Origin: Thermococcus sp. P6
Lineage (GTDB): Archaea > Methanobacteriota_B > Thermococci > Thermococcales > Thermococcaceae
Assembly: GCF_002214525.1 (NCBI RefSeq)
Contig: NZ_CP015104.1
Location: 310,001 to 374,000, forward strand
Length of the DNA stretch: 64,000 bases
Direction of reading: 5' to 3'
Shown here: piece after piece, positions 33,419 to 52,805 of the stretch
Layout: each line of letters begins with the position of its first letter
Position numbering within the stretch: the first letter of the stretch is position 1
The notes under the pieces: model-generated
What the model was told of the DNA's origin: nothing
The model's database searches: none
The model's input: the letters and a program-made list of their open reading frames with translations, nothing else
Translations under genes and position numbers: made by a program

Positions 33419-33832
33419 ATGCACGAATGGGCACTTGCCGATGGAATAGTTAGAACAGCTCTTGACTACGCCAAAAGGGAGGGAGCATCGCGGATACTCG
33501 CCATTAAGGTCGTTCTCGGTGAGCTTCAGGATGTGGACGCCGAAATAGTCGAGTTCGCCATGAAGGAACTCCTCAGGGGGACCATCGGAGAAGGTGCAGG
33601 GATTATCTTTGAGGAGGAAGAGGCCGTCTTCAGGTGCAGGAACTGTAACCACGAGTGGAAGCTAAAGGACGTGAGGGACGGATTCGACGAGAGCATAAAA
33701 GAGGACATACACTTCATCCCCGAGGTCGTCCACGCCTTTCTCACCTGTCCGAAGTGTGGCAGCAGGGACTTCGAGGTGGTCAGCGGAAGGGGAGTTTACA
33801 TAAGCGGGATAAAGATCGAAAGGGAGGGATGA
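33419..33832 (+). CDS. hypA: Hydrogenase nickel incorporation protein HypA
   Basis: This 137-residue nickel metallochaperone begins MHEWALADGIV, with the invariant His2 that binds nickel, and contains a zinc site with CRNC (about residue 73) and CPKC (about residue 110). The insertion between the two CxxC pairs (about 40 residues) is longer than in bacteria and is typical of Thermococcus HypA. HypB follows three bases later. In Thermococcus the two proteins form a complex that handles nickel for [NiFe] hydrogenases. Confidence 0.96.
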   Translation: MHEWALADGIVRTALDYAKREGASRILAIKVVLGELQDVDAEIVEFAMKELLRGTIGEGAGIIFEEEEAVFRCRNCNHEWKLKDVRDGFDESIKEDIHFIPEVVHAFLTCPKCGSRDFEVVSGRGVYISGIKIEREG

Positions 33833-33835
33833 AAA

Positions 33836-34561
33836 ATGATCGATCCCCGCGTTAAGGGAATAGAGGGAAGGCTCGAGGGGGTGAAGCGCGTAATCCCCGT
33901 CGTCAGCGGAAAGGGTGGCGTCGGAAAGTCCCTCGTGTCCACAACACTGGCCCTCGTTCTGGCTGAGAAGGGCCACAGAACCGGACTCCTCGACCTCGAC
34001 TTTCACGGGGCGAGCGATCACGTCATCCTCGGCTTCCAGCCGGAGGACTTTCCCGAGGAGGAGTACGGTGTGGTTCCCCCGACGGTCCACGGGGTAAAGT
34101 TCATGAGCATAGTTTACTACTCCGAGGACAGGCCCACGCCGATGAGAGGGAGGGAGATAAGCGACGCCCTCATAGAGCTCCTTGCCATAACCCGGTGGGA
34201 CGAGCTGGACTACCTGATCATAGACATGCCACCCGGCCTCGGTGACCAGTTCCTCGATGTCATCCGCTTCCTCGAGGGGGGCGAGTTTCTGGTGGTGGCA
34301 ACCCCCTCCAGGCTCTCGATGAACGTGGTTGAGAAACTCCTGACCCTTCTTAAGGAGGGGAACCACAGGGTAATCGGGGTGGTCGAGAACATGAAGCTCG
34401 ACGATGAGAAGGACATAGAAATGCTCGCAAAGAGGTTCAACGTGCCCTACCTCACCGGGATCCCGCTCTACAGGGATCTGGAGAGGGTCATCGGGAAGCC
34501 GGAGGAGTTGCTCGGGACGGACTTCGCAGAGAGGATAAGGGAGGTTGCCGGAAGGCTTTAG
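33836..34561 (+). CDS. hypB: Hydrogenase maturation HypB, MinD/Mrp-type ATPase
   Basis: This 241-residue P-loop protein is the Thermococcales replacement for the GTPase HypB. The deviant Walker A SGKGGVGKS (about residues 24-32) and the IIDMPPGLGDQ segment place it in the Mrp/MinD family, not in the SIMIBI GTPase HypB subfamily. Its position directly after hypA matches the characterised Thermococcus kodakarensis atypical HypB, which uses ATP to assist nickel transfer by HypA. Annotation pipelines may call it only an Mrp-family ATPase. Confidence 0.92.
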   Translation: MIDPRVKGIEGRLEGVKRVIPVVSGKGGVGKSLVSTTLALVLAEKGHRTGLLDLDFHGASDHVILGFQPEDFPEEEYGVVPPTVHGVKFMSIVYYSEDRPTPMRGREISDALIELLAITRWDELDYLIIDMPPGLGDQFLDVIRFLEGGEFLVVATPSRLSMNVVEKLLTLLKEGNHRVIGVVENMKLDDEKDIEMLAKRFNVPYLTGIPLYRDLERVIGKPEELLGTDFAERIREVAGRL

Positions 34562-34588
34562 CCTTCTTTTCCCTCGGGAGGGAGCGCC

Positions 34589-35065
34589 GTGGAACTTCGG
34601 GAGTTGCTGGGTGGGACGAAAAGGATCGTGGTCTGCGGGATAGGGAATCGGATCAGGGGGGACGACGCCTTCGGCGTTCTGGTTGCGGAGGAACTCGGAA
34701 AACTCGTAAAAAATCCGGACGTTCTCGTGTTGAACTGCGGCGAGGTTCCCGAGAGCTACACCGGGAAGATAACCGCCTTCGAACCGGACCTCGTCCTTTT
34801 CATCGATGCGGTTGATTTCTCCGGGGAGCCGGGCGAGATCGTCGTGGCCGATCCCGGAGGAACGGTTGGGGATGCCGTCTCGACCCACAGCCTGCCGTTG
34901 AGGGTTCTCGTTGACTACCTCAGGCTGAAGACCAGCGCCACCTTTGTTCTCATCGGATGCCAGCCGAAGGTTACGGGTCTCTTTCAGGAGCCGACGGATC
35001 TGGTGCTCGAGAGGGCCAAAAACCTCGCGCGAACCCTCGCTCGGCTCCTCAACGAGGGGCCCTGA
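34589..35065 (+). CDS. hycI: Hydrogenase maturation protease (HycI/HyaD family)
   Basis: This 158-residue endopeptidase cleaves the C-terminal extension of the hydrogenase large subunit after nickel insertion. Motifs include GIGNRIRGDDAFGVLVAEEL (with a nickel-sensing aspartate), LFIDAVDFSG and THSLPL (conserved His). It lies 27 bases after hypB. Which hydrogenase large subunit it processes cannot be told; none is encoded in the window. Confidence 0.93.
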   Translation: MELRELLGGTKRIVVCGIGNRIRGDDAFGVLVAEELGKLVKNPDVLVLNCGEVPESYTGKITAFEPDLVLFIDAVDFSGEPGEIVVADPGGTVGDAVSTHSLPLRVLVDYLRLKTSATFVLIGCQPKVTGLFQEPTDLVLERAKNLARTLARLLNEGP

Positions 35066-35118: not shown

Positions 35119-35135
35119 GTTTAAAACCTATGGTT
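35119..35135 (+). promoter_or_regulatory. SurR binding site upstream of hypC
   Basis: GTT TAA AAC CTATG GTT is an exact match to the extended SurR motif GTTn3AACn5GTT. It ends nine bases before a TATA-like CCTAAAAAG at about 35145-35153, which would start transcription a few bases before the AGGTGA ribosome binding site of hypC. Upstream placement fits SurR acting as an activator. The site itself also contains a TATA-like TTTAAAA, so an alternative promoter at the site is possible. Confidence 0.72.
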
Positions 35136-35184: not shown

Positions 35185-35433
35185 ATGTGTCTGGCCGTTC
35201 CGGCGAAGGTGGTTGAAATAAACGGAAAGGTTGCCGTTGTGGACTTTGGCGGTGTGAAGAGGGAGGCCCGTTTGGATCTTCTTCCGGACGTCAGGGTGGG
35301 TGATTACGTCATAGTTCACACGGGCTTCGCGATAGAGAAGCTCGAAAGGGAGAGGGCGCTGGAGGCACTAAAGGCCTGGGAAGAGGTATTCCAAGTGATC
35401 CAGGACCGAACTCATACCTCCGGGGGGAAGTGA
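35185..35433 (+). CDS. hypC: Hydrogenase assembly chaperone HypC
   Basis: This 82-residue chaperone starts MCLAVPAKVVEI; the N-terminal Cys2 is the invariant residue that binds the Fe(CN)2CO unit with HypD. The GDYVIVHTGFAIEKL segment is typical. It has its own promoter with a SurR site and ends exactly at the base before hypD, so the two partners are coupled. Confidence 0.96.
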   Translation: MCLAVPAKVVEINGKVAVVDFGGVKREARLDLLPDVRVGDYVIVHTGFAIEKLERERALEALKAWEEVFQVIQDRTHTSGGK

Positions 35434-36537
35434 ATGCTTGAGGAGTTCAGGGACAGGGAGCTGGCCCGGAGAATCCTCGATGAGATACGCAGGGAGGCGG
35501 AGGGATTCGATGAATTCCACTTCATGCACGTCTGCGGAACCCACGAGGACACCGTGACGAGATCGGGCATACGGTCCCTCCTTCCCGAAAACGTCAGTAT
35601 AATGAGCGGCCCCGGGTGTCCGGTCTGCATAACGCCCGTGGAGGACATAGTGAGGATGCAGGAGATAGTAAGGGAAGCCTACGCGGATGGAGAGAATATT
35701 ATCCTCACGACCTTTGGGGACATGTACAAGATCCCGACCCCGAGGGGGAGCTTCGCGGACCTGAAAAGCGAGGGCTACGACGTCAGGATCGTCTACTCGA
35801 TCTTTGATGCTTACAACATGGCCAAAGCCAACCCCGATAGAACGGTCGTTCACTTCTCGCCGGGTTTCGAGACGACGGTGGCACCAGCGGCCGGAATGCT
35901 GAACGCGGTTGTGGAGGAGGGACTCGATAACTTCAGGATATACTCCGTCCACCGCCTCACCCCCCCGGCCGTTGAGGTTCTCATAAAGGGCAGGAAGAGG
36001 TTCCAGGGGTTGATAACCCCCGGTCACGTCTCCACGATAATCGGTGTGAAGGGGTGGGAGTACATAACGACCGAGTACGGCATGCCGCAGGTTATAACGG
36101 GCTTCGAGCCCGTTGATGTGTTGCTCGCCATACTCATGCTCATCAGGATGGTAAAAAACGATGAGCCGGAGATAATCAACGAGTACACGAGGGCCGTCAG
36201 GTACGAGGGTAACGTCACCGCTCAGAGGCTCATCGATAAGTTCTTCGAGGTCAGAGACGCCCGGTGGCGTGCGCTTGGCGTCATACCCCGGAGCGGTCTT
36301 GAACTCAGGAGGGAGTGGAGGGAGCTGGAGATACGGACGTACTACAACCCGGAGGTTCCAGAACTGCCCGATCTTGAGAAGGGATGCCTCTGCGGTGCTG
36401 TACTGCGCGGTCTGGCTCTGCCCACCGATTGCCCGCACTTCGGGAAGACCTGTACCCCAAGGCACCCAGTGGGTCCGTGCATGGTATCCTACGAGGGAAC
36501 GTGCTCGATCTTCTACAAATACGGGGGCCTTATATGA
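35434..36537 (+). CDS. hypD: Hydrogenase maturation protein HypD
   Basis: This 367-residue iron-sulfur scaffold is where the iron centre receives its CO and cyanide ligands. Conserved cysteine motifs are MHVCGTHEDT (about residues 27-36), GPGCPVCITP and the C-terminal cluster motif with GCLCGAVLRG...PTDCPHFGKTCTP. GFETT is also present. It starts on the base after hypC ends. Confidence 0.97.
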   Translation: MLEEFRDRELARRILDEIRREAEGFDEFHFMHVCGTHEDTVTRSGIRSLLPENVSIMSGPGCPVCITPVEDIVRMQEIVREAYADGENIILTTFGDMYKIPTPRGSFADLKSEGYDVRIVYSIFDAYNMAKANPDRTVVHFSPGFETTVAPAAGMLNAVVEEGLDNFRIYSVHRLTPPAVEVLIKGRKRFQGLITPGHVSTIIGVKGWEYITTEYGMPQVITGFEPVDVLLAILMLIRMVKNDEPEIINEYTRAVRYEGNVTAQRLIDKFFEVRDARWRALGVIPRSGLELRREWRELEIRTYYNPEVPELPDLEKGCLCGAVLRGLALPTDCPHFGKTCTPRHPVGPCMVSYEGTCSIFYKYGGLI

Positions 36538-36545
36538 CACCAAAG

Positions 36546-36580
36546 GTTCAAAACTCCCCGTATGTTTTTAACTTTTGGTT
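36546..36580 (+). promoter_or_regulatory. Tandem SurR sites upstream of hypF
   Basis: Two sites lie in the hypF promoter. GTT CAA AAC at 36546-36554 matches the SurR core. GTT TTT AAC TTTTG GTT at 36564-36580 is an exact match to the extended motif GTTn3AACn5GTT. The second ends about eight bases before the TATA element AGGTATAAG (36588-36596), the same geometry as at hypC, which suggests activation. The ribosome binding site GGTGGA and ATG 36629 follow. Confidence 0.75.
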
Positions 36581-36628
36581 TTAGAAAGGTATAAGGGCCC
36601 GGATTACCAGATAGAAGTGGTGGAATGA

Positions 36629-38947
36629 ATGAAGGCTTACCGGCTTCACGTTCAGGGGGTCGTTCAGGCCGTCGGCTTCAGGCCCTTCGTCTACAGGATT
36701 GCCCACGAGAACGGTCTCAGTGGCTACGTTAAGAACCTCGGTGACGCCGGGGTCGAAATCCTCGTTGAGGGGAGGGAGGAGAACATAGATTCCTTCCTGC
36801 GAGACCTGATGGAGAAGCTCCCCCCTCTGGCGAGGATAGAGAGGATAGATAAAAGGGAGGTTCCCCCGCAGGGTTTTGACCGCTTCTACATCGAGAAAAG
36901 TTCAAAGGGCGGGAGAGGGGGGGACTCGATAATACCTCCGGACATAGCGATATGCGACGACTGCCTCAGGGAGCTCTTCGATCCGGGGAACAAGAGGTAC
37001 ATGTACCCCTTCATCGTGTGCACCAACTGTGGCCCGAGGTTTACGATAATTGAGGACCTGCCCTACGACAGGGTCAACACCACCATGAGGGACTTTCCGA
37101 TGTGCGATTTCTGCCGGAGCGAATACGAGGACCCCCTCAACAGGCGCTACCATGCGGAACCGGTCTGCTGTCCCGTATGCGGACCCTCCTACAGGCTTTA
37201 CACGAACGATGGCGATGAGCTCACAGGGGATCCGTTGAAGAAAGCCGCAGAGCTCATAGATCGCGGCTACATCGTGGCCATAAAGGGAATCGGCGGGATA
37301 CACCTCGCCTGCGATGCCACAAACCGGGAGGCCGTTGAAGAGCTCAGGAGGCGGACCCGTAGACCGCAGAAGCCCTTTGCGATAATGGCCAGGGACGTGG
37401 AAACGGTAAGGGAGTTCGCCTTCCTCGGTGAAGATGAACTCGCGGAACTTACGTCCTACAGGCGGCCCATAGTGGCCCTTCGAAAGAGGGAACCCTTCCC
37501 CCTACCGGATAACCTCGCACCGGGACTGCACACCATCGGAACGATGCTCCCCTACGCCGGAACGCACTACATCCTGTTCCACTGGAGCAGGAGCAGGGTT
37601 TACGTTATGACGTCGGCCAACTACCCGGGAATGCCCATGGTGAAGGACAACGAGGAGGCCTTCAGGGAACTGAGGGAGGTTGCCGACTACCTCCTGCTGC
37701 ACAACAGGAGGATACTCAACAGGACAGACGACAGCGTCGTGCGCTTCGTGGACGGAAGACGGGCGGTGATAAGGAGGAGCAGGGGGTTCGTGCCCCTACC
37801 CGTGGAGATACCCTTCGAGTACCGGGGTCTGGCCGTTGGGGCCGAGCTAATGAACGCCTTCGGAGTGGCGAAGAACGGGAAGGTCTACCCGAGCCAGTAC
37901 ATAGGCAACACCTCGAAGGTGGAGGTGCTCGAGTTTATGAGGGAAGCGATAGAGCACTTCAGGAGAATACTCCGCGTCGGGGACCTCGATCTCATCGTGG
38001 CGGACCTGCATCCCGCCTACAACACCACGAAGCTGGCTATGGAGATGGCCAGCGAACTCGGTGTCGGGCTCCTTCAGGTTCAGCACCACTACGCCCATAC
38101 GGCGAGCGTTATGGCCGAGAACGGTCTCGAGGAGGTAATAGGCATAGCTGTCGACGGCGTGGGCTACGGAACGGACGGGCGGATATGGGGTGGCGAGGTA
38201 ATCTACATGAGTTACGAGGACGTGGAGAGGGTGGCCCACGTGGATTACTACCCCCTACCGGGGGGCGATCTTGCCGCTTACTACCCCCTCCGGGCGCTTA
38301 TGGGCATACTCAGAAAGCTCTACGGCCCTGATGAGCTGAGGAGCGTAATCAGGGAGTGCTGCCCGAGGGCCGTGGAAAGCCTTCCCTACGGAGAGGTGGA
38401 GTTCAACGTCATCCTGACCCAGCTGGAGAGGGGTGTTAACATCACCCACGCCTCCTCAACCGGAAGGGTTCTCGATGCCCTTTCCGTTCTCCTCAACGTT
38501 GCCCACAGGAGGCACTACGAGGGTGAGCCGGCGATGAAACTGGAGGCCCTTGCGGTTCACGGAAAGAACGACCTCAGGTTCGAGGTTCCTGTTGAGGATG
38601 GACGCATAAAGGTAGAAGAGCTCTTTAGGGAGGCTCTGGAGGCCATCAACGGGGCCAATCCTGCGGACATCGCCTACTCGGCACATCTGGCACTCGCAAG
38701 GGCCTTTGCGGGGGTTGCTGTGGAGAAAGCCCGGGAGTTCGGGGTGAAGAACGTTGGAATGAGCGGTGGCGTGGCCTTCAACGAGCTTCTGGTCAAAACC
38801 GTAAGGAAGATAGTCGAGGCCAGCGGGTTGAGGTTCTACACAACCCGGGAGGTTCCCCGGGGTGACAACGGGATAAACGTCGGGCAGGCCTTCCTCGGCG
38901 GGCTCTACCTCGAGGGCCACCTCGCCGAAGAGGACCTGATGATGTAA
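36629..38947 (+). CDS. hypF: Carbamoyltransferase HypF
   Basis: This 772-residue enzyme prepares the cyanide ligands by activating carbamoyl phosphate and carbamoylating HypE. Domains in order: acylphosphatase-like (about 1-90, VQGVVQAVGFRPFVYR), two zinc fingers (about 108-185, CDDC, CTNC, CDFC, CPVC), a YrdC-like domain (about 200-385) and a Kae1-like carbamoyltransferase domain (about 395-765) with HHYAHTASVMAEN as metal site. The hypE gene follows with about 36 bases between the coding regions. Confidence 0.97.
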   Translation: MKAYRLHVQGVVQAVGFRPFVYRIAHENGLSGYVKNLGDAGVEILVEGREENIDSFLRDLMEKLPPLARIERIDKREVPPQGFDRFYIEKSSKGGRGGDSIIPPDIAICDDCLRELFDPGNKRYMYPFIVCTNCGPRFTIIEDLPYDRVNTTMRDFPMCDFCRSEYEDPLNRRYHAEPVCCPVCGPSYRLYTNDGDELTGDPLKKAAELIDRGYIVAIKGIGGIHLACDATNREAVEELRRRTRRPQKPFAIMARDVETVREFAFLGEDELAELTSYRRPIVALRKREPFPLPDNLAPGLHTIGTMLPYAGTHYILFHWSRSRVYVMTSANYPGMPMVKDNEEAFRELREVADYLLLHNRRILNRTDDSVVRFVDGRRAVIRRSRGFVPLPVEIPFEYRGLAVGAELMNAFGVAKNGKVYPSQYIGNTSKVEVLEFMREAIEHFRRILRVGDLDLIVADLHPAYNTTKLAMEMASELGVGLLQVQHHYAHTASVMAENGLEEVIGIAVDGVGYGTDGRIWGGEVIYMSYEDVERVAHVDYYPLPGGDLAAYYPLRALMGILRKLYGPDELRSVIRECCPRAVESLPYGEVEFNVILTQLERGVNITHASSTGRVLDALSVLLNVAHRRHYEGEPAMKLEALAVHGKNDLRFEVPVEDGRIKVEELFREALEAINGANPADIAYSAHLALARAFAGVAVEKAREFGVKNVGMSGGVAFNELLVKTVRKIVEASGLRFYTTREVPRGDNGINVGQAFLGGLYLEGHLAEEDLMM

Positions 38948-38983
38948 TTTAAGGTGATGGAAAGAACTTCCGGAGGGAGAAAC

Positions 38984-39994
38984 ATGAAGATAAAACTGGA
39001 GCACGGTGCCGGTGGGGAGATAATGGAAGAGCTCCTCAGGGATGTGATACTGAAGAACCTGAGCCTGAGGTCCGCCGGTGGGATAGGGCTCGACGCCCTA
39101 GACGACGGGGCGACCATACCGCTGGGCGAGGGACACCTCGTTTTTACAATAGACGGGCACACGGTCAAACCCCTCTTCTTCCCGGGAGGTGACATCGGCC
39201 GTCTGGCCGTCAGCGGGACCGTAAACGATCTGGCCGTCATGGGGGCGAGACCCCTCGCGCTGGCCAGCGCTATGATAATCGGAGAGGGGTTCGAGGGCGA
39301 GGATCTGGAGAGGATACTCCGCTCGATGGACGAGACCGCCAGAGAGGTCCCGGTTCCGATAGTCACTGGAGACACCAAGGTGGTGGAAGAGGATATAGGG
39401 ATCTTCGTAATCACTGCCGGGCTGGGAATGGCCGAAAGGCCCGTAAGCGACGCCGGAGCAAGAATCGGCGATGCCGTCATCGTCAGCGGCACGATCGGCG
39501 ACCATGGGATAGCATTGATGAGCCACCGTGAGGGGATTGCCTTTGAAACCGAACTGAAAAGCGATGTGGGGCCCGTCTGGGAGCTCGTCAGGAGAGTAGC
39601 GGACGCCATAGGATGGGAGAACGTACACGCCATGAAGGATCCAACGAGGGGGGGCCTGAGCAACGCCCTCAACGAGATGGCCCGTAAGGCGAACGTTGGG
39701 ATACTGATAAGAGAAGCCGACGTTCCGGTAAGGCCAGAGGTCCGGGCGGCAAGCGACATGCTGGGCATAAGCCCCTTCGACGTTGCCAACGAGGGCAAGG
39801 TTATCATGATCGTTCCGAAGGAGCAAGCTGAGGCGGCTCTGAAGGCCATGAGGGGCACCGAAAAGGGAAGGGATTCGGCGATAATAGGCGAGGTCATAGG
39901 GGACTACAGGGGGAGGGTTCTGGTTGAGACGGGAATAGGGGGGAGGCGCTTCCTTGAACCCCCCACGGGCGATCCCGTCCCGAGGGTCTGCTGA
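38984..39994 (+). CDS. hypE: Hydrogenase maturation protein HypE
   Basis: This 336-residue PurM-like ATPase dehydrates a C-terminal thiocarbamate to thiocyanate, the cyanide donor. It ends in PRVC, the obligatory C-terminal cysteine. Other features are KLEHGAGGEIMEELL near the start and DPTRGGLSNALNEMA. ATG 38984 follows GGAGGGAGAA and is preferred over the GTG at 38954. The stop overlaps a small ATG frame (39994-40047). Confidence 0.96.
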   Translation: MKIKLEHGAGGEIMEELLRDVILKNLSLRSAGGIGLDALDDGATIPLGEGHLVFTIDGHTVKPLFFPGGDIGRLAVSGTVNDLAVMGARPLALASAMIIGEGFEGEDLERILRSMDETAREVPVPIVTGDTKVVEEDIGIFVITAGLGMAERPVSDAGARIGDAVIVSGTIGDHGIALMSHREGIAFETELKSDVGPVWELVRRVADAIGWENVHAMKDPTRGGLSNALNEMARKANVGILIREADVPVRPEVRAASDMLGISPFDVANEGKVIMIVPKEQAEAALKAMRGTEKGRDSAIIGEVIGDYRGRVLVETGIGGRRFLEPPTGDPVPRVC

Positions 39995-42300: not shown

Positions 42301-43623
42301 TCAGAATTTGAGGACCCTCGCGAGGACCACCAGAGGATCCCAGACGGGGGCAAAGGGTGGAGCGTACGCCAGATCCGTGAAGAAGACGTCTTTCGTCGTG
42401 AACCCTGCGGTCAGCATGGCGGCGGCGGTGTCTATCCTCGGGAGAACTTCCCCCCCGACCGCCTGCACTCCAAGGAGCCTGCCGGTCTCGTTGTCGACGA
42501 CGCCCTTAAGCCGGATCTCCTTTCCTCCGGGGTAGTAGTGGGGCCTCGTTCCGGCCTTTATGAATGCCGTTCTGACGTCATAACCCTCTTCGATGGCCTC
42601 GGACTCGGTGAGGCCCGTCTTTCCGATCTCCAGATCGAGGAACTTCGTCACGCTCGTTCCAAGAACCCCCGGGAAGTGGATTTCTTTGCCGGCTATGTTG
42701 CTTCCCGCCACGTAGCCCATTTTATTTCCCGCCGGGGCAAGGGGTATCCACACCCTCTTCCGAGTTATCACGTGCCTCGTCTCGGCAACGTCTCCGGCCG
42801 CGTAAACGTTTTCTACACTCGTCTGCATCCTCCCGTCCGTCCATATCGCTCCGGTTTCGCCTATCCTAACGCCGAGTTCCCTTGCGAGCTCCACGTTCGG
42901 CCTTATCCCGGTTGCCAGTACGACGAGGTCCGCCTCGTACTCACCGGCGTCGGTGATCACCTTCTCAACCCGTCCGTTGCCCTCGAGGCGCAGCGTGAGC
43001 TCCTCCAGTCTCAGATTAAGGTGCTCTCTCAATTTCTCTTCCACTACCTCCGTTATCTCCCTGTCGAAGGTCTTCCTTAAAATCCGTTCGCTTCTTCCTA
43101 TAAGCGTGACGTTTTTGCCCCTCGTCACGAAGGCCTCCGCCATCTCAAGCGCTATGTAACCCGTTCCAATGACGACGACATTCTTAACATCGTGCTTTTC
43201 CATGTACTCCGTTATTGCAACCGCGTCCGGTGGAAGGTCGGCCGTGAAAACTCCTTCAAGATCGACTCCCTCGATGGGCGGGAGCTTTGGAGAGGCGCCG
43301 TTTGCAAAGACCAGATAATCCCACTCGTAGCCCTTCTCCCTATCCCCTTCCCTGACGCGTACGCTCCCCTGATCGACCTCCAGAACCTCGGCATTTAGGT
43401 GGAGGTCTATTCCCCTCTTTTTGATGAAGACCTCGGGTGGATAGTGCATGAGCTTTTCCTTCGGTGAAATGCCTTCAACAACGTAGGGAATGCCACAGGG
43501 AGCGTGGCTGACCCATTCGGTCCTTTCAAAGACCTTTACGTCCCAGTCCGGCCTCAATCGCTTCACCCTTGAAGCGGCACTCATTCCCGCCGCACCGCCG
43601 CCTATGATAACCACGCGCTTCAT
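42301..43623 (-). CDS. nsr: CoA-dependent NAD(P)H sulfur reductase / CoA-disulfide reductase
   Basis: This 440-residue FAD flavoprotein matches the Pyrococcus Nsr/CoADR along its whole length. It has the Rossmann [16 protein letters not shown] at the N terminus, the redox cysteine in [13 protein letters not shown] (about residue 43), a second NAD-binding [13 protein letters not shown] and the flavin-binding [10 protein letters not shown]. In Thermococcales this enzyme reduces elemental sulfur with NAD(P)H and CoA. I chose ATG 43623 ([10 protein letters not shown]); ATG 43629 is possible. A perfect SurR motif lies 19 bases upstream of the start. Confidence 0.93.
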
Positions 43624-43641
43624 TTTCATCACCGGAGGAAG

Positions 43642-43658
43642 GTTGCAAACCTGAGGTT
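43642..43658 (-). promoter_or_regulatory. SurR binding site in the nsr promoter
   Basis: Read on the plus strand, GTT GCA AAC CTGAG GTT matches the extended SurR motif exactly. A TATA-like CTTTTTAACC on the minus strand (about 43655-43665) overlaps its upstream edge, so the site lies between the TATA box and the transcript start. This placement predicts repression of nsr by reduced SurR and release when sulfur oxidises SurR, as reported for the Pyrococcus furiosus orthologue. Confidence 0.78.
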
Positions 43659-51271: not shown

Positions 51272-51952
51272 TCATCCCAGTGCCGCGAGAAGCTTCTCCA
51301 TGAACATCTTCTCGGGGTAGGCACCCTCGAACTGGACCCTGTCCTCGCCGTTCACCTGAATGACGATCTTGGGCACGGCCATGACACTGTACCTGTCGGC
51401 CCATTCGGGGTACTCTATGGCCTCGACCATGTCGCCGAGTATCTTGCCCTTTCCTGCGTTTGTGTTCTCGATGGCGAACTTGTGGGCCATCCTGACCGCG
51501 AGCGGGCAGTACGGACAGGTGGGCGTCACAAAGACGAGTATCCTGACGTCCCTGTCGATTCCGGCGAGCTCCCGCTTGCTCTCCTCCATGAGATCCGTCC
51601 GGGCGTTGCTGACGTCAACTATGTCCTCGAGGAATGCCCCGAACTCATGGCCCGCGGGAAGGCCGAAGTACCTCACTCCCATGTCCTTTCCATCCCGGGT
51701 TATGGTAACGGCCGGGGCGTTGTCTATCCGGTATTTCCCGGCAAGCTCCTTACCTTCGGGGCTCTCGAAGTCGTGCAGCTCGTAGGTAAGCTTCTCCGTA
51801 AGCTCGCTGAGCTCCTGAAGCAACTGCTTGAGCTGGTCGCAGTACTGGCAGTGTTCCCTTCCGATGAAGCCGATTATCTTAACCGGCTCGGTCATCTTGG
51901 AGAAGAACTCCTCCTTGATAACCTTCTTGTCCGCATCACTTATCAGTCCCAT
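51272..51952 (-). CDS. pdo: Protein disulfide oxidoreductase (glutaredoxin-like, two thioredoxin folds)
   Basis: This 226-residue cytoplasmic dithiol-disulfide oxidoreductase is nearly identical in layout to the Pyrococcus furiosus PDO. Two thioredoxin units carry CQYC (residues 35-38) and CPYC (residues 146-149). ATG 51952 (MGLISDADKKVIKEEFFSKM) follows GGAGGTG; longer frames up to 52021 ignore the promoter. TATA ATTATAAT at 51986-51993 and a SurR core motif at 51971-51979 lie in the gap shared with the divergent surR gene. Confidence 0.96.
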   Translation of the reverse strand: MGLISDADKKVIKEEFFSKMTEPVKIIGFIGREHCQYCDQLKQLLQELSELTEKLTYELHDFESPEGKELAGKYRIDNAPAVTITRDGKDMGVRYFGLPAGHEFGAFLEDIVDVSNARTDLMEESKRELAGIDRDVRILVFVTPTCPYCPLAVRMAHKFAIENTNAGKGKILGDMVEAIEYPEWADRYSVMAVPKIVIQVNGEDRVQFEGAYPEKMFMEKLLAALG

Positions 51953-51970
51953 CCCAAACACCTCCACAAG

Positions 51971-52047
51971 GTTTATAACGATTGGATTATAATCCTTTTG
52001 CAGGATCCGGCCTCGGATCACATGAGGGTTAAATGTTCACTATATAA
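51971..52047. promoter_or_regulatory. Divergent pdo-surR promoter region with SurR core site
   Basis: For pdo (minus) the TATA box is ATTATAAT at 51986-51993. GTT TAT AAC at 51971-51979 matches the SurR core GTTn3AAC and lies between that TATA box and the expected transcript start, a repressor position. For surR (plus) the TATA box is CTATATAAG at 52040-52048, giving a leader of about 12 bases with GGGTGGTG as ribosome binding site. Confidence 0.65.
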
Positions 52048-52079: not shown

Positions 52080-52805
52080 ATGGATGAACCCGACATATTC
52101 TACATACTCGGAAACCGGGTGAGGCGTGACCTCTTGGGTCACCTCACCTGCACCGAGTGTTACTTCAGTTTCCTTAGCAGTAAGGTTAGCGTCTCCTCGA
52201 CGGCTGTGGCAAAGCACCTGAAAATCATGGAACGTGAGGGAATACTGAAGTCCTACGAAAGGGAGGGGCCCTTCATAGGGCCTGCAAGAAAGTATTATGA
52301 CATAGCCATCTCCAGAAGCTACGTCGCGACCGTGACACCGAACATCTTCTGGTACAGGGGGCTCGACATCGGGAAAGACCCCGGCATTGATAGGGTCGAG
52401 ATCGACCTGACGCACGTTCCGGAGGAGCACGGGGACATTCTCCGGGCGGTGAGTTCTTTCCTTGAGTTAACGGGGGAGCTTGAGAAGTTACTTAAAGCGC
52501 TTCAGGCGGTGGAACGCAGGCGCGACGGGACGATGAAGGAGATCAAGGAGCTCTACCTCCGGGAGATAGGCGACATGACCCAGCTGGCGATACTCCACTA
52601 CGTCCTCCTTGAGGGAGAGGCCACGGTTGATGAGCTGAGCGACAGGCTCAACCTCAAGGAGAGGGAGGTTCTCGTTAAAGCCGGGGAACTGGACAAGTTC
52701 GTACCGTTAAGGATAAAAGACGGGAGGATTCAAATCGACCGGGAAAGGCTGAAGAGGAAGATCCACGGTGATGATAATGCCGGAAAGGATAAGGGTAGTG
52801 GTTAA
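52080..52805 (+). CDS. surR: Sulfur-responsive transcriptional regulator SurR
   Basis: This 241-residue winged-helix regulator matches the Pyrococcus SurR in its N-terminal DNA-binding domain: EPDIFYILGNRVRRDLL, the redox switch CTEC (Cys 24 and 27), and the recognition region SSKVSVSSTAVAKHLKIMEREG. In P. furiosus the reduced protein binds GTTn3AAC sites, activating hydrogenase genes and repressing sulfur genes; oxidation of CxxC by sulfur abolishes binding. It is divergent from pdo and overlaps the ferredoxin gene by 29 bases. Several putative target sites occur in this window. Confidence 0.96.
   Translation: MDEPDIFYILGNRVRRDLLGHLTCTECYFSFLSSKVSVSSTAVAKHLKIMEREGILKSYEREGPFIGPARKYYDIAISRSYVATVTPNIFWYRGLDIGKDPGIDRVEIDLTHVPEEHGDILRAVSSFLELTGELEKLLKALQAVERRRDGTMKEIKELYLREIGDMTQLAILHYVLLEGEATVDELSDRLNLKEREVLVKAGELDKFVPLRIKDGRIQIDRERLKRKIHGDDNAGKDKGSG

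Follow-up and report, generated by a model that had tools for sequence, protein, structure and literature searches.

A conserved, inverted pair of predicted SurR sites adjoins the hypF-hypE promoter in the Thermococcaceae

The DNA upstream of hypF in Thermococcus sp. P6 harbors two SurR motifs in opposite orientation, directly in front of the BRE/TATA element, and this region very likely serves to activate the hypF-hypE transcription unit through SurR; sulfur would release SurR from the DNA and lower expression (we assign this reading a probability of about 0.88). A comparison of about 90 genomes ranks the genes for the cyanide ligands of [NiFe]-hydrogenase with the most conserved SurR targets of the Thermococcaceae, which suggests that enzyme and cofactor supply are probably under one sulfur-redox signal. 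The features of the window (the whole stretch of 64,000 nucleotides that was analysed) are listed in Table 1.

Table 1. Genes and predicted regulatory elements in the window, with the basis of each assignment.
Feature	Position	Strand	Basis or remark
Perfect extended SurR site before hypC-hypD (predicted)	35119..35135	+	motif search
hypC (35185-35433) and hypD (35434-36537)	35185..36537	+	TIGR00074, TIGR00075, above cut-off
Distal SurR site of hypF (predicted)	36538..36554	minus	extended motif with one mismatch (GTTTTGAACCTTTGGTG); includes core GTTCAAAAC at 36546-36554
Proximal SurR site of hypF (predicted)	36564..36580	+	perfect extended motif GTTn3AACn5GTT (GTTTTTAACTTTTGGTT)
BRE/TATA of hypF	36584..36596	+	AGAAAGGTATAAG, read from sequence
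hypF, carbamoyltransferase HypF	36629..38947	+	TIGR00143, 873 bits (cut-off 466)
hypE, downstream in the hypF transcription unit	38987..39994	+	TIGR02124, 391.8 bits (cut-off 251.6); alternative GTG start at 38954
nsr/CoA-disulfide reductase	42301..43632	minus	TIGR03385, 596.8 bits
Perfect extended SurR site before nsr (predicted)	43642..43658	+	downstream of candidate TATA, near start codon
pdo, protein disulfide oxidoreductase, divergent from surR	51272..52021	minus	TIGR02187, 244.5 bits (cut-off 185)
surR, regulator	52080..52805	+	NF047699 (NCBI SurR model), 380.7 bits (cut-off 250); CTEC (CxxC) in N-terminal domain

Architecture of the hypF Promoter

Both sites lie in the 91 bp intergenic region between the hypD stop codon (36535-36537) and the hypF start. 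The initial annotation described them as tandem SurR sites upstream of the hypF TATA box, a core (GTTn3AAC) followed by a perfect extended site; both motifs are present where it placed them, and the proximal one is indeed perfect. The tandem arrangement, and the reading of the distal element as a mere core, were replaced after alignment: on the plus strand the distal element reads CACCAAAGGTTCAAAAC, which is AACn5GTTn3AAC with one mismatch; read on the minus strand, it is thus an almost perfect extended site. The two sites therefore form an inverted pair, in which the extensions point outwards and the cores are 18 bp apart, with a 9-bp gap between them. GAAAGGTATAAGG is found directly 3' of the proximal site, and nine bases separate the end of this site from the start of TATAA at 36590, for which the earlier estimate of about eight was fair.

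The core motif occurs 21 times in the window (11.2 expected) and 491 times in the 1.52 Mb genome; at this frequency it has little meaning alone, and it was dropped as evidence in its own right. The extended motif is present three times in the window, where 0.39 would be expected, and one shuffle in 100 gave as many; in the genome there are 28, compared with three for the reversed pattern. Written as a 27-mer (GTTn3AACn9GTTn3AAC), the hypF pair has a single occurrence in the genome, and its reversed control has none. By dinucleotide shuffling of the hypD-hypF intergenic region, the probability of an extended site is 0.0024 and that of the spaced pair 5e-5.

Conservation Across the Thermococcaceae

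Upstream DNA of hypF was gathered from 87 Thermococcaceae genomes belonging to six genus-level groups, 86 of which have the promoter block, and substitutions were counted as parsimony changes per column on a HypF tree built from the coding sequences of 84 genomes. A perfect proximal site is present in 84 of the 87 promoters; in this alignment, a check that the initial annotation had proposed for the Thermococcales, the motif is far from absent in related promoters. The three exceptions are G045, with ATT in place of GTT, G077 (L183), in which one inserted T in the spacer gives a GTTn4AAC core, and G048 (L151, a fragmented assembly), where the whole promoter block is missing before an intact hypF. 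Of the 86 blocks, 77 keep an intact distal core at precisely the 18-bp register; the full inverted extended motif is matched without error in 19 blocks and with a single mismatch in 60. In all but one of the 86 (85/86), NNTATAA starts at a constant distance of 7 nt past the extended site. In the deep-branching lineages L188 (G002), L191 (G093) and L174 (G003), the proximal site is kept and the distal core is degenerate (AAT for AAC, spacing off by one); G002 is Palaeococcus pacificus, in which the proximal site is perfect and the degenerate distal site contains GTTTAAAAT out of register. A different kind of irregularity occurs in G069, where a second hypF copy (G069:C2:345420-347734), broken into two pieces in different frames, is located about 35 kb from the intact gene.

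Purifying selection acts on exactly the motif columns of the hypF sites. The nine defining columns of the proximal site have two changes in total, or 0.22 per column, as counted in blocks aligned by a string inside this site, an anchor that can mask changes there and that only one genome failed. The corresponding value is likewise 0.22 in the BRE/TATA; it rises to 4.4 in the distal motif, 9.7 in the inter-core spacer and 17.3 in the flanks, and fourfold-degenerate hypF sites have a mean of 22.6 changes per site. The free n3 positions are more variable than the motif columns (4.7 changes per column in the proximal site and 9.7 in the distal site, with 22 at the first distal n3 position), as predicted for a reader of GTTn3AAC. 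The stretch AACTTTTGGTTTT is almost invariant across promoters, which exceeds the demands of the SurR motif, and a share of the conservation may therefore stem from promoter/BRE function.

Outside the Thermococcales, none of 53 hypF genes has an extended SurR site within 250 bp, and one has a core; these genes include those of Thermoplasmata and DHVE2 archaea, with HypF about 60% identical. In a second collection, which overlaps the first set, 17 of 19 Thermococcales contigs have the extended site at hypF. The presence of the proximal site in nearly all of the family and its absence from these outgroups refute an origin of the motifs as chance matches in an AT-rich promoter, a reading that the abundance of the core by itself could be taken to favor and that the shuffles also speak against; we regard it as vanishingly unlikely.

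The block also has its own association with hypF. Separation of hypD from hypF is seen in 35 of the 87 genomes, among them every member of four of the six genus-level groups, and the block is nonetheless kept there, which indicates that it belongs to hypF and travels with it.

SurR and Other Extended Sites in the Genome

The gene for the regulator is itself in the window, and the true start of the divergent pdo is probably further in than the GTG start as listed, in which case a short site at 51971-51979 would fall in the intergenic region. In front of hypC, the site-to-TATA layout is the same as at hypF, and an extended site is located at -63 to -67 of hypC in 20 of 29 testable relatives. Unlike at hypCD and hypF, no SurR core was found directly in front of the unit of hypA, a Mrp-type ATPase and a HycI-like protease (33419-35065, upstream of hypC), and the nickel-insertion genes may therefore escape SurR control.

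Elsewhere in the genome, perfect extended sites precede the mbh cluster, an mbs-like cluster and two Nfn/sulfide-dehydrogenase-like units. The mbh cluster is that at 826-835 kb, in which the catalytic subunit has both CxxC motifs; another candidate, L018 (1051542), was rejected as mbh, its catalytic subunit being mbs/mbx-like and without the CxxC pairs. The mbh promoter (L257:692-716) has two extended motifs of opposite orientation with one common core, AACCTTTGGTTGACAACGAACCGTT. Two hydrogenases with complete NiFe motifs are available for HypF to serve, namely mbh and the cytosolic sulfhydrogenase. The operon of the latter has a SurR site with one mismatch (AACCTTTGGTTTAGAAT; L258:9707-9723), similar to what has been reported for T. 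barophilus and T. piezophilus, where the SHI motifs are mutated. Perfect extended sites were additionally observed before an ornithine/4-aminobutyrate-type aminotransferase gene (L257:12914-12930), a SufC-like ABC ATPase gene and trmO, which has a lipoprotein-like gene behind it (L257, L026, L027), and it is possible that these genes are SurR targets not listed to date.

Proposed Regulation of hypF-hypE

A SurR site upstream of the BRE/TATA is in the activating position, while one close to the start codon and downstream of the TATA is in the repressing position (PMC12162507). The hypF promoter combines the core and extended motif with the former position, a CxxC-bearing SurR is encoded in the genome, and the arrangement is conserved among orthologs. 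From these features, and from the partner sites at hypC, mbh and nsr, we infer occupancy and activation: without sulfur, reduced SurR would be bound upstream of the TATA and activate hypF-hypE, and it may do so by helping TFB/TBP assemble on the adjoining BRE/TATA. Sulfur would oxidize SurR and take it off the DNA, with a loss of activation, and hypF, hypCD and the H2-evolving hydrogenase mbh would drop together. The two sites may be used cooperatively, and the distal one probably raises SurR occupancy. Two conserved SurR sites before hypF suggest that the hydrogenase cofactor is probably made only when the cell is making hydrogen, and not when it is reducing sulfur.

The initial annotation had proposed direct control of hypF by SurR, and this prediction is in line with the surR gene and its CxxC, the activating position, the near-absolute conservation and the absence from outgroups, as well as with the loss of HypF in T. 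onnurineus, where protein values on sulfur are 0.26/0.41/0.18 for HypF and 0.69/0.86/0.45 for HypE (PMC4463584). Data from Pa. pacificus are opposite, with hypF up 10.8-fold on sulfur (PMC6981617). The same study also has MBH1 increased by sulfur, the reverse of what other species show, and a text search of the paper found no mention of replicates; this contrast is a lead only, since it concerns one species with no stated replicates found. In the open-access papers that were read, positions of SurR motifs are given for the clusters of hydrogenase, mbs, Nfn and pdo, and hypF is absent there; a literature search for PF0559 returned no archaeal regulation paper among the matches listed, and the main text of a T. 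kodakarensis transcriptome study (PMC4247193) does not mention hypF.

Alternative Readings

The contribution of the distal site can be read in two further ways. The proximal extended site may alone be what counts, with the distal site auxiliary or decaying and without a separate role, a reading that we consider unlikely on balance, if quite conceivable: substitution is about 20 times faster in the distal motif columns than in the proximal ones, and the distal core is broken in eight scattered genomes, seven of which still have a perfect proximal site. The same distal columns, however, change about 4 to 5 times more slowly than the flanks and the fourfold sites, substitution at the first distal n3 position runs at the neutral rate, and most blocks preserve the 18-bp register. 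Alternatively, the pair could be a two-site switch, in which two SurR dimers in opposite orientation and in a fixed 18-bp centre-to-centre register act together and give cofactor synthesis a sharper on-off response than that of the hydrogenases, and lineages without the distal site (Palaeococcus) would have lost or reversed the sulfur response of hypF; this proposal is tentative and, in our estimation, doubtful. Both the paired sites and the contrast with Palaeococcus deserve experiment, and the role of the second site can be tested in natural variants, namely Palaeococcus, G077 with its n4 insertion, G048 and G045.

Two other readings concern the promoter as a whole. Expression of hypF mainly by read-through from the hypC promoter, which has its own SurR site of the same geometry, would leave the hypF promoter a minor role; the end of hypD lies 91 bp before hypF, and in the 46 g1 and 6 g3 genomes in which hypF is directly behind hypCD, read-through could also supply hypF. 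Conservation of the block where hypD is not adjacent, and the nearly invariant BRE/TATA columns, make it improbable that this is the main source. We find it more improbable still that SurR, or another factor on the same DNA, is not a simple activator of hypF and that the sulfur response is lineage dependent or reversed. The increase of hypF in Pa. pacificus, where the distal site is degenerate, would fit such an arrangement, but the T. onnurineus protein data are opposite, the Pa. pacificus study departs from other species in MBH1 as well and carries the limit on replicates given above, and a site upstream of the BRE occupies the activating position in studied promoters. SurR-dependent activation of hypF-hypE from its own upstream region is the reading that we retain.

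Comparison with Known Systems

Co-regulation of hydrogenase and maturation genes is not new: control of the P. furiosus maturation genes by SurR, or the primary sulfur response, had already been attributed, as stated in a passage of PMC4463584. Together with the fall of HypF on sulfur in T. onnurineus, this makes the hypF pair a further case of a known kind; it extends the SurR regulon and is a clear, conserved example of a known relation, and not a new kind of system. The hypF promoter is also a clean test case for an archaeal activator placed against the BRE.

With the SurR regulon of Pyrococcus furiosus and Thermococcus (Lipscomb et al., 2009, 2017, as cited in PMC12162507 and PMC8595942), the hypF region shares the motif (GTTn3AAC/GTTn3AACn5GTT), the CxxC regulator and the activating position upstream of the BRE/TATA, and, according to the same passage of PMC4463584, hydrogenase and maturation genes as targets. 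It differs in the oppositely oriented extended pair, held in an 18-bp register next to the BRE. Within the same genome, the nsr promoter has a perfect extended motif as well, but its site is near the start codon and apparently downstream of the TATA, in the repressing position (PMC12162507), whereas that of hypF is upstream. The mbh promoter likewise has two opposite extended motifs, upstream of the H2-evolving hydrogenase operon; there the motifs overlap on one core (AACn5GTTn3AACn5GTT), whereas the hypF sites are separate, with a 9-bp gap.
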